Shown here piece by piece: positions 3,879-49,525 of a stretch of DNA of 64,000 bases. Each line of letters opens with the position of its first letter. Position 1 is the stretch's first letter. The position numbers and the translations under genes are program-made. The DNA is from an uncultured Litoreibacter sp. (lineage in GTDB: Bacteria > Pseudomonadota > Alphaproteobacteria > Rhodobacterales > Rhodobacteraceae), in assembly GCF_947501785.1 (NCBI RefSeq), contig NZ_CANMXB010000001.1, positions 1,507,048-1,571,047 of the forward strand, written 5' to 3'. Under the pieces are notes generated by a model that saw only the letters and a program-made list of their open reading frames with translations, was not told where the DNA came from and did not search any database.

Positions 3879-3902
3879 AAAACTCTTCGGAGAAGAGTTT
3901 TT
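3879..3902. terminator. Bidirectional terminator hairpin
   Basis: A perfect 10-bp stem, AAAACTCTTC paired with GAAGAGTTTT, closes a three-base loop, and the arms give A/T runs on both sides. It is placed to end transcripts of both the dehydrogenase (from the left) and the small membrane protein (from the right). Confidence 0.7.
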
Positions 3903-47234: not shown

Positions 47235-47258
47235 GGAACCGACCCTGACAGTTATCAG

Positions 47259-47289
47259 GCCCGCGCAAAGGTATCTGCGCGGGCTTTTT
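47259..47289 (+). terminator. Terminator of gcrA
   Basis: GCCCGCGCA and TGCGCGGGC form a perfect 9-bp stem followed by TTTTT. Confidence 0.88.
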
Positions 47290-47367
47290 CGTGTCTGGCC
47301 GTTTTTGGCGTTTCCGTAATATGTAGGCCCTTCGTCCGATGCAGCAGACCGCCCGAATGCCTGCGTT

Positions 47368-47682
47368 CTAGTCAGTGTCCCAAGTCAGCGCTTCTGCTGT
47401 TGCGCAGATGGCTTTGAGGACATCCAGGTACGCCCGGAATGCGACCGAGCCGCTATCGGAGAGGCAATAGACCGTATGCGGCCGTCCCTCCAAAACCATC
47501 CGGCTGTGCAGATAGCCCGCAGCGCCAAGCTTCTTGAGATGGGCGTCCAGATTTCCATCTGTGATTGAAAGGGACGCCTTCAGCTGGGAAAAACTTGGCT
47601 CGCCGACATAAAGCAACAGCCCAAGCCGCGTCCTTACCGGCTGATGGAACATTGCATCGGGGACAGGCGGTACCGGCGCCAT
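47368..47682 (-). CDS. Winged-helix transcriptional regulator (HTH_34-like)
   Basis: The 104-residue protein is a single winged-helix domain: HQPVRTRLGLLLYVGEPSFSQLKASLSITDGNLDAHLKKLGAAGYL is the helix-turn-helix of the HTH_34/PadR-MarR-like group, and GRPHTVYCLSDSG is the wing. The start at 47682 is chosen because it overlaps the stop of the DUF1835 gene by one base (TGATG); an upstream start at 47724 would add 14 residues. It may control this operon through the tandem operators at 48708. Confidence 0.75.
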   Translation of the reverse strand: MAPVPPVPDAMFHQPVRTRLGLLLYVGEPSFSQLKASLSITDGNLDAHLKKLGAAGYLHSRMVLEGRPHTVYCLSDSGSVAFRAYLDVLKAICATAEALTWDTD

Positions 47683-48686
47683 CAGATGCCCCGCCGCAAG
47701 AAATGCGCGGCGTCCTTGTGCCATGTCCAGATGGTGCCGGACTGCTGCAGCTCGACCCCGCCCAGCCAGCCATCACGTCTCATCAAACCCGTCGCGTCTT
47801 GCGCACCGTCCAGGACGCGGCGGCCAACCTCCGTCAGGCTCAGAACTTGGGTTTTGAATGCCGCATGTTCCGTCGTTGTGAAGGAAGGAAAACGAAATGG
47901 GTTTGGGTCGCACGTGACAAGGCCCCCCCTACAAAGGGCGTCGATTGTCCTGAAGGTCGGCCAGTCGCCGATATAGAGAGCTGTTTCCAAATCCATATTC
48001 TGCAAGAAGAGCTGCCCCGGCGTTTGAACGCCTGCGCCAATGAGGCTGAGCAATTGGGCCTCCGTCCTGCTCAGCCCTGTTTTCGCATTGGGGAATTCCT
48101 CAACATGACGACGCAGGGCGGCACCCAAAAAGGGCAATGCGCTCAGGTCCCCATTGATATAGGCCAGCAGATCATTTGGGTCGCTTGATCGGAATGCCGC
48201 CCATCCGGACGCCGCCAATCTCAGCATCTGCTTCGTGATGGGACGTTTAAGGCTGGTAAGGGTGGCCATTTGATCGGCACTAAGTTGGCCGATACCGCGG
48301 AAGTTTGGCTCTCCGGGAAATCGGTCAATGCAAATCATTTCAAGCTTGGGTCCCGTCGCCTTCGCATGATGGAACCAGTCGAGAATTTGCAGAACCTGAA
48401 GTTGATCCAACAGGTCATGCTCGAACCACAGGATGACGGTGTCGTAGCCGGACGACGTCGTGAGATGTTGATCTCTGATTTGAAAGTCTCTTTCGGCCTC
48501 TGTCGGATCTGCATCAGGCCCCACCAGATAGCGGGCCCGCAGATTGCTCAGTTCGGAAAGGGGCAGGTTTGCAGGAAATGGCCCGTGATGCATCGGATCT
48601 CGCCACGGCAACACGTCCCCAACAATGGCGCTTTGTTTGATGATGTTCGCCGCACCATCTCCGTTTGTGATGTTGAGTATCTTCAT
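47682..48686 (-). CDS. DUF1835 domain protein
   Basis: The 334-residue protein starts MKILNITNGDGAANIIKQSA and has DPMHHGPFP and WFEHDLLDQLQVLQIL, which are characteristic of DUF1835. The role of this domain is not established. GAGG stands five bases before the ATG. The gene is first in an operon with the winged-helix gene, and tandem operators lie only 20-56 bases upstream of it. Confidence 0.78.
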   Translation of the reverse strand: MKILNITNGDGAANIIKQSAIVGDVLPWRDPMHHGPFPANLPLSELSNLRARYLVGPDADPTEAERDFQIRDQHLTTSSGYDTVILWFEHDLLDQLQVLQILDWFHHAKATGPKLEMICIDRFPGEPNFRGIGQLSADQMATLTSLKRPITKQMLRLAASGWAAFRSSDPNDLLAYINGDLSALPFLGAALRRHVEEFPNAKTGLSRTEAQLLSLIGAGVQTPGQLFLQNMDLETALYIGDWPTFRTIDALCRGGLVTCDPNPFRFPSFTTTEHAAFKTQVLSLTEVGRRVLDGAQDATGLMRRDGWLGGVELQQSGTIWTWHKDAAHFLRRGI

Positions 48687-48707
48687 TTTTCCTCGCAGCT
48701 CTCAACT

Positions 48708-48742
48708 ACTCTGTAACGCAGAGTTACTCTGAAGTACAGAGC
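48708..48742. promoter_or_regulatory. Two tandem operators
   Basis: ACTCTGTAACGCAGAGT (48708-48724) and ACTCTGAAGTACAGAGC (48726-48742) are two copies of ACTCTG-N5-CAGAGT spaced by 18 bases, centre to centre. They lie between the divergent DUF1835 operon and the membrane-protein/XRE operon. Two such sites on the same face of the DNA would suit a dimeric regulator. Confidence 0.7.
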
Positions 48743-48875
48743 GAATGTGATGCCGCGATTCACGGGATCGAAGCAGATCAGAACCAACCCGGCAGGTTCT
48801 GCAACGCACAATACGGCTTTACTCCGGCATCAATTGGTGACAAGTTTGCTTTGCATAATGAAAAGGAAGCTTGAT

Positions 48876-49295
48876 ATGATTCGCACCGGACGCGCCCAAG
48901 TCGCTGCACTCTTTGCCATCTTTCTTGGCACAGCCTGTTTGCTCTTCTTCAATCCACCTTTCATCGTTCAGATCATCTTTGTGCTTGTCTGTTTCTCTTG
49001 GGCGGCGTGGTACTTTATGGAAATTTTTCGGGGGCCGGACGAGGTTGAATCCGCAAGTGTGAGATATGCTCTCGCATTCGCAAGCGGTCTTGGTGCCCCC
49101 CTTTCGATAACATTTGTCATGGTAATGAGCGCCGTCCCGGCTATCCAAGACGCGATCACATTCATGGCGAGTTCTGCAGAAAACAATCTAAGCCCCGCTG
49201 CTGCAGGGTTTGGTTTGGGGGTGGCCTTTGCCGTATTCGCCCTGTGCACCTCTCTTTGTGTCGGCTCGACCATCTGGTGGGCCTCAAAGCGATGA
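48876..49295 (+). CDS. Membrane protein, partner of an XRE regulator
   Basis: The 139-residue protein has four hydrophobic segments (e.g. VAALFAIFLGTACLLFF, QIIFVLVCFSWAAWYFM) and is expected to be in the inner membrane. AAAAGGA precedes the ATG at 48876; a second start at 48858 has none. Its stop overlaps the start of the XRE gene (ATGA), so the two work as a pair. The pairing of a small membrane protein with an XRE repressor recurs in bacteria; its function is poorly known. Confidence 0.7.
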   Translation: MIRTGRAQVAALFAIFLGTACLLFFNPPFIVQIIFVLVCFSWAAWYFMEIFRGPDEVESASVRYALAFASGLGAPLSITFVMVMSAVPAIQDAITFMASSAENNLSPAAAGFGLGVAFAVFALCTSLCVGSTIWWASKR

Positions 49296-49486
49296 AGAAT
49301 AGTATCAGGGTCCTGCGTGCCGAACGTCGATGGACCCAAGCCGACCTTGCAAAGGAATTGGGGGTTTCGAGAAATTCGGTCAACGCCATCGAGAACGGAA
49401 AATACGACCCGTCCTTGCCTCTGGCGCTTCGCATCGCCGGGCTGTTCGGAAAGACGGTAGAAGAGATTTTTGAAGCAGAGGCATAG
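49292..49486 (+). CDS. XRE-type HTH regulator
   Basis: The 64-residue protein is one Cro/CI-like HTH: IRVLRAERRWTQADLAKELG followed by VSRNSVNAIENGKYDPSLPLALRIAGLF, then EIFEAE at the C-terminus. The start overlaps the membrane protein stop (ATGA), and the in-frame start at 49244 is rejected. It is probably an autoregulator of its operon. Confidence 0.88.
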   Translation: MKNSIRVLRAERRWTQADLAKELGVSRNSVNAIENGKYDPSLPLALRIAGLFGKTVEEIFEAEA

Positions 49487-49525
49487 CTGGCAGTATGCAG
49501 AAAGGCGCCAGATATGGCCGCCATG

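Follow-up and report, generated by a model that had tools for sequence, protein, structure and literature searches.

A tandem palindrome ahead of a DUF1835-type gene in Litoreibacter, very probably the operator of the HTH_34 winged-helix protein encoded in the same operon

The window analysed here, a stretch of 64,000 nucleotides from an uncultured Litoreibacter sp. (Rhodobacteraceae; contig NZ_CANMXB010000001.1, positions 1,507,048 to 1,571,047), carries two divergent gene pairs separated by a pair of short palindromes (Table 1). The leftward pair encodes a DUF1835-type protein and, behind it, a small HTH_34 winged-helix protein, the ATG of which overlaps the stop codon of the first gene (TGATG, 47684-47680); an alternative in-frame start of this second gene lies earlier, at 47724. 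The rightward pair encodes a hydrophobic, membrane protein and an XRE protein. The palindromes, hereafter boxes, occupy the 189-bp gap between the two facing gene starts, and the start codon of the DUF1835-type gene is found 21 to 56 bases downstream of them, in agreement with the preliminary description of this DNA. That description had also reported two copies of ACTCTG-N5-CAGAGT, 18 bases apart. The start-to-start spacing is indeed 18 bp and the proximal copy is perfect; the other copy, ACTCTGaagtaCAGAGc, departs from the motif by one mismatch, its last base being C instead of T.

Table 1. Features of the locus, in window coordinates unless indicated otherwise. The operator and repressor assignments are those proposed in the text.
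Feature	Position	Strand or direction	Remarks
Second gene of the putatively regulated operon, 104-aa HTH_34 winged-helix protein, proposed repressor	47368..47682	-	
First gene of the putatively regulated operon, 334-aa DUF1835-type protein	47682..48686	-	Predicted TOPRIM-like (~1-180) and winged-helix (~207-334) fold
Putative operator box 2, proximal to the regulated gene	48708-48724		Palindrome, 17 bp; ACTCTGtaacgCAGAGT, 0 mismatches, perfect 6-base arms
Putative operator box 1, distal to the regulated gene	48726-48742		Palindrome, 17 bp; ACTCTGaagtaCAGAGc; - strand reading GCTCTGtacttCAGAGT
Divergent hydrophobic (membrane) protein gene, 139 aa	Start put at 48876	Rightward	
Divergent XRE protein gene, 64 aa	49292-49486	Rightward	HTH_3 family, E 5.6e-16
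ACTCTTCG-type palindrome	3882-3898; own genome, C1 1237042, 1317259, 1716518, 3234387		

Both gene pairs lie between gcrA and an AsmA-like gene (47235-49525). The AsmA-like gene was located in 14 relatives of the same genus (L197-L210), with gcrA inside the fetched stretch in 11 of them, and none of the four window genes was matched in any of these 14 stretches. Between their gcrA and AsmA-like matches, six relatives have 27-175 bp and five others about 860-920 bp, compared with ~2.3 kb in the window. The four-gene cassette is accessory, and this gap is a variable spot within the genus. The DUF1835-type gene is itself sparse, being found in 3 of 394 genomes of the family. A defence-gene identity of the cassette was considered and dropped, as the PADLOC defence-gene search returned no match for the DUF1835-type protein, weak ones to Csa3 for the HTH_34 protein, at best E 1.6e-4, and ones of a generic HTH kind for the XRE protein.

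The count of boxes within the window alone is not decisive as to chance: three matches with up to two mismatches were found for 1.04 expected, and 8 of 100 shuffled sequences reached three. At the same tolerance, the whole genome (3,893,318 bp) holds 46 sites (65 when the pattern is reversed as a control), of which the two window boxes are the only ones with 0 or 1 mismatch. Since no other genomic site fits ACTCTG-N5-CAGAGT with at most one mismatch, the putative operator is local. Exact ACTCTG-N5-CAGAG sites are present somewhere in 87 of the 394 family genomes, so that lone exact sites must be regarded as common by chance, and the idea that the motif marks a large regulon was dropped. Three of these 87 genomes possess a DUF1835-type gene and each has an exact site directly ahead of it; in genome G028, one further exact site occurs elsewhere, besides that ahead of the DUF1835-type gene. 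A separate palindrome, of the ACTCTTCG-n-(C/A/G)GAAGAGT type and flanked by AAA/TTT, occurs five times in the genome, with a second inverted repeat close by in the four contexts read; such repeats are possibly paired intergenic palindromes or terminators.

Using a search profile made from four DUF1835-type proteins, we collected 48 loci from genome contigs and matches in 28 of 385 genomes of the class. Removal of repeats left 78 distinct DUF1835-type loci, in 16 of which an HTH_34 gene lies directly downstream (the duplicates dropped were L004, L005, L011 and L090, from the places of the window, L045 and L043, and L092, identical to L062; L007-L010, the same places as L094, L096, L097 and L102, were not entered in the count). 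All 16 HTH_34-linked loci, and none of the 62 others, have an exact CTCTG-N5-CAGAG core no more than 200 bp ahead of the first gene. When both flanks were required (at least 100 bp upstream and at least 330 bp downstream; 73 loci), the figures became 16 of 16 versus 0 of 57, for which Fisher's test gives 1.9e-16, a value to be taken as a guide only, as the box counts are not independent because the loci are related. The five loci left out for short flanks were L119, the gene of which begins before the contig, and L069, L070, L082 and L099, where the contig breaks off inside the DUF1835-type gene or shortly behind it. The 568,595 bases covered by these DUF1835-type loci contain no further exact core. 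The preliminary description had read the boxes as an operator of the DUF1835/winged-helix operon, a reading that it made dependent on conservation ahead of orthologous operons, and had suggested looking for the motif in front of other DUF1835 genes. The motif turned out to be conserved ahead of all 16 DUF1835-type operons that include the HTH_34 gene, in keeping with an operator, and to be missing ahead of the DUF1835-type genes that lack this partner, which rules it out as a property of DUF1835. In L095, L097, L100 and L102-L111, the DUF1835-type match lies inside longer open frames (444-546 codons) with extra sequence ahead.

On a tree of 75 of the 78 proteins (those over 250 aa), the presence of the HTH_34 gene requires seven changes, at least two of which are forced by starred branches, and box and gene always occur together, being gained and lost jointly. 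Genome G621 provides a natural control, as one of its copies has the HTH_34 gene and the boxes (L091) and the other has neither (L118). A member of the window's own genus (G016, L006) also has neither. As for the membrane and XRE genes, a search of L001-L011 and L042-L141 matched them at the window's own place only, and the boxes occur at 15 other loci where these two genes are missing; when the membrane protein was compared with 120 other genomes, a single marginal match was obtained (E 8.6e-4, 34% identity). The two-operon unit suggested in the preliminary description, which joined these divergent genes to the DUF1835/winged-helix operon, was consequently rejected, since it is absent from all other loci searched.

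The product of the second gene scores 54.5 bits against Pfam HTH_34 (PF13601; E 1.3e-14), above the curated cut-off of 27. Its profile matches 1ub9 (PH1061 of Pyrococcus horikoshii) in the PDB (E 2.4e-10), and its structural model (pLDDT 93.5) has the same 1ub9 as top Foldseek match (E 2.1e-5, 1.8 A), with many known repressors among the nearest solved structures. The protein is an HTH_34 regulator, similar to PH1061 in sequence and predicted to share its winged-helix fold.

HTH_34 genes of other contexts were collected from the class and the phylum (L122-L171). No DUF1835-type gene was detected in these 50 stretches, under conditions in which the positive controls L120 and L121 were detected. 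Thirty-five of the 50 loci were kept, the helix pattern T[DEQ]GNLxxH being required; we excluded repeats (L143, L144, L149), loci with the helix pattern more than 250 bp off centre (L126, L169) and loci without it (L133, L137, L140, L150, L151, L153, L157, L160, L162, L170). A palindrome of the form ACTnTn-N5-nAnAGT, in which base 4 is free but symmetric, was found at most 1400 bp upstream in 24 of the 35 loci, versus an average of 0.015 loci in block-shuffled sequence. The class of boxes found with these other partners can be written ACTyTr-N5-yArAGT, and its base 4 follows the recognition helix of the regulator: with TDGNL-S[V/R/T]-H helices, all 14 boxes carry T at this position, and with T[D/E]GNL-[G/D/E]A-H helices all 13 boxes, from 10 loci, carry C (the excluded locus L126 would have agreed). 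As for the DUF1835-linked regulators, the helix TDGNLDAHL is invariant in 16 of 16 and base 4 is C in 29 of their 30 boxes. In 16 of the 24 loci, the box and the regulator gene are separated by a frame for a hydrophobic protein of ~185-215 or 355 aa (membrane-like by eye). In three loci of another family of the phylum (f182; L154, L155, L168), tandem boxes 31-35 bp apart accompany a ~355-aa hydrophobic protein.

Of the 35 loci, 11 have no box in the upstream stretch: the helix is of the T-Q-GNL type in three and of the T-D-GNL-G-A type in five (L128, L147, L148, L152, L156), the others being L161 (DA), L165 and L136 (both SR). L136 has a downstream box only. The operators of some of the 11 may lie beyond the 1.5-kb flanks. 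In the downstream stretch that served as control, boxes were found in five of the 35 loci, all with SR helices and all with T at base 4, about 260-300 bp past the helix. These ACTTT[G/A]-type boxes of L135, L136, L159, L163 and L167 are perhaps operators of a second target. As judged from sequence comparison, the motif goes with HTH_34 regulators and not with DUF1835, and among relatives of the proposed repressor a simple rule seems to link the recognition helix of the protein to base 4 of the DNA box. From their co-occurrence and from this agreement between helix and base, we infer that the HTH_34 protein and the box form a pair. It is these comparative data, from the DUF1835-linked loci and from the HTH_34 loci with other partners, that rule out a chance origin of the boxes and are decisive in confirming that the box pair is real.

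The 16 HTH_34-linked loci yielded 30 boxes (counted at up to two mismatches), in which the ten core bases hardly vary. Base 1 is A, and base 17 T, in 25 boxes each, and A or T predominates at the five central positions. The spacing between box starts is 18 bp in eight loci, 20 bp in four, and 22 and 23 bp in one each; L048 and L050 have a single box. In six of the 16 loci, the last base of a -35-like TTGAC[A/G] is also the first of box 1, so that box 1 would fall in the spacer between -35 and -10 and box 2 would cover the -10 and the start. No TTGAC stands beside box 1 in the window, where a scan for sigma-70 promoters found one, which is not above chance (shuffle mean 1.0).

The DUF1835-type protein of the window scores 13.8 bits against Pfam DUF1835 (PF08874), below the cut-off of 21.1, and is linked to this family through its relatives only, 41 of the 69 members of its aligned family matching DUF1835 at E <= 0.001. 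Modelled with these 69 relatives (mean pLDDT 95.4), it has gyrase and topo IV core structures as top Foldseek matches (5npk_B, E 8.1e-6, probability 1.00, TMq 0.54). VIA-align superposed the model on topo IV 6waa_H over 285 residues (Z 12.9, 4.1 A), and its TOPRIM part on 4tma_B over 139 residues (Z 12.8, 2.6 A). The winged-helix part (residues 207-334) also weakly resembles PadR and MarR-type proteins (ranks 33 and 41). At the profile level, hhalign against GyrA and ParC of the same genome gave E 0.0022 at a probability of 13%, with the GyrA patterns P-DLRDGL and HPHGD aligned with P199, G204-L205 and G240-D241; the comparisons with GyrB/ParE (E 0.29) and with the HTH_34 profile (E 0.14) were not significant, and a sequence search of the PDB returned no match.

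The DUF1835-type protein is thereby predicted to adopt the TOPRIM plus winged-helix core fold of type IIA topoisomerases, in the same domain order (GyrB/ParE TOPRIM, then GyrA/ParC winged helix). It differs from these enzymes in its size of 334 residues, without ATPase or tail domains, and in lacking the motif-1 glutamate and a conserved tyrosine. The glutamate is absent in all 69 sequences, where column 8 of a by-eye alignment to GyrB VEGDSA is N in 48, C in 18, G in one and a gap in two; and no tyrosine column is conserved in at least 50 of the 69 over residues 186-334. Regarding the acidic DxD metal site, its first two acids have plausible counterparts in E89 (65 of 69) and D91 (68 of 69), and L93 does not agree with the third. 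The predicted protein resembles a DNA-gate core on paper; we do not class it as a topoisomerase, as a shared fold does not show function. Our guess is that it binds DNA without cleaving it.

Autorepressors of the PadR, ArsR and MarR types are small winged-helix proteins with a palindromic operator near their own promoter. The HTH_34 case is similar in these two respects and differs by its family, its box and the tandem arrangement of the boxes. The full-text literature search found no paper on HTH_34 or PF13601, and hence no reported operator or function for this family. Judged by title and start of abstract, nothing on ACTCTG/CAGAGT combined with operator terms concerned this family, nor did anything among the matches listed for ACTTTG/CAAAGT; PH1061 was not mentioned among the matches listed for that name. 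In Burkholderia cenocepacia, the DUF1835 gene BCAL0211 is co-transcribed with BCAL0210, which encodes the TetR-type regulator PaaR, and its leader has a 15-bp inverted repeat shared with the phenylacetate promoters; the role of this repeat in controlling BCAL0211 itself was left open in that report (PMC2770484). The Burkholderia operon is alike in combining a DUF1835 gene with a regulator gene and an inverted repeat in the leader, and differs in that its TetR-type regulator is unrelated to HTH_34 and its repeat is another one.

Which protein would bind the boxes? The preliminary description hesitated between the winged-helix and the XRE proteins. The XRE protein is an HTH_3-family DNA-binding protein (E 5.6e-16) encoded divergently from the boxes, and its gene pair shares with the other one a gcrA/AsmA-like gap that is short or otherwise filled in relatives; were it the binder, the two divergent operons would form one self-regulated unit. 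We regard this as hardly credible, given the 15 loci that have the boxes with no membrane or XRE match, and it is the winged-helix protein that, from the distribution of its gene, is the better candidate. A winged-helix part, weakly PadR/MarR-like, is also predicted in the DUF1835-type protein (residues 207-334), which might itself bind the boxes in a direct autoregulation by the first gene. Such self-binding is very improbable, as the 57 DUF1835-type loci devoid of an HTH_34 gene have no box, and HTH_34 loci devoid of DUF1835 do have one.

The HTH_34 protein might bind the boxes and activate the operon instead of repressing it, a possibility favoured by the four loci in which both boxes lie at least 64 bp (64-120 bp) from the start codon (L053, L054, L055, L060) and by the window, where no promoter consensus was recognised. 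Activation nonetheless seems unlikely in view of the six loci in which TTGAC[A/G] runs into box 1, a layout in which box 2 would cover the -10 and start positions expected from it, as for a repressor. Another reading sees the operon as a toxin-antitoxin module, with a DUF1835-type toxin and an HTH_34 antitoxin acting on a tandem self-operator, in line with the overlapping genes, the sparse distribution (3 of 394 family genomes) and the self-operator itself. Against it, the HTH_34 gene is missing at 57 of the 73 DUF1835-type loci with both sides available, and the regulator also occurs without DUF1835, usually behind the gene of a hydrophobic protein (16 of 24). As most DUF1835-type loci were found without an HTH_34 gene, the DUF1835-type protein does not need HTH_34, and we give a toxin-antitoxin module very little credence.

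We propose that the boxes are very probably the tandem operator of a two-gene operon repressed by the product of its own second gene, i.e., the landing sites of a small HTH_34 repressor encoded in the same operon. Binding, dimerisation, and repression rather than activation, are what we infer from the sequences. The second gene would yield the small winged-helix protein, which, presumably as a dimer, would bind each 17-bp palindrome. The two side-by-side sites would overlap or adjoin the first gene's promoter, and the bound protein would block RNA polymerase, thereby keeping the operon, regulator included, at a low level until some signal releases the repression. The product under control would be the predicted TOPRIM plus winged-helix protein resembling the DNA-gate core of type IIA topoisomerases. 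More speculatively, HTH_34 proteins may be widespread dedicated autorepressors with a readable code, in which base 4 of ACTyTr-N5-yArAGT is dictated by the residue pair that follows T[D/E]GNL; in the branch studied here, this code might guard an unrecognised relative of the gyrase/topo IV DNA gate, made as a single chain and having lost the cleavage residues, that once released would bind crossed or bent DNA, or gyrase. We hold this wider picture to be possible, though somewhat doubtful as a whole.

Our proposal provides the Pfam family HTH_34 with a candidate target sequence and a two-class specificity rule, through which operators and target genes could become predictable from the protein sequence of the regulator. 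It also supplies the DUF1835 family with a structural hypothesis, that of a protein built from a TOPRIM and a winged-helix part in the manner of the topoisomerase DNA gate.
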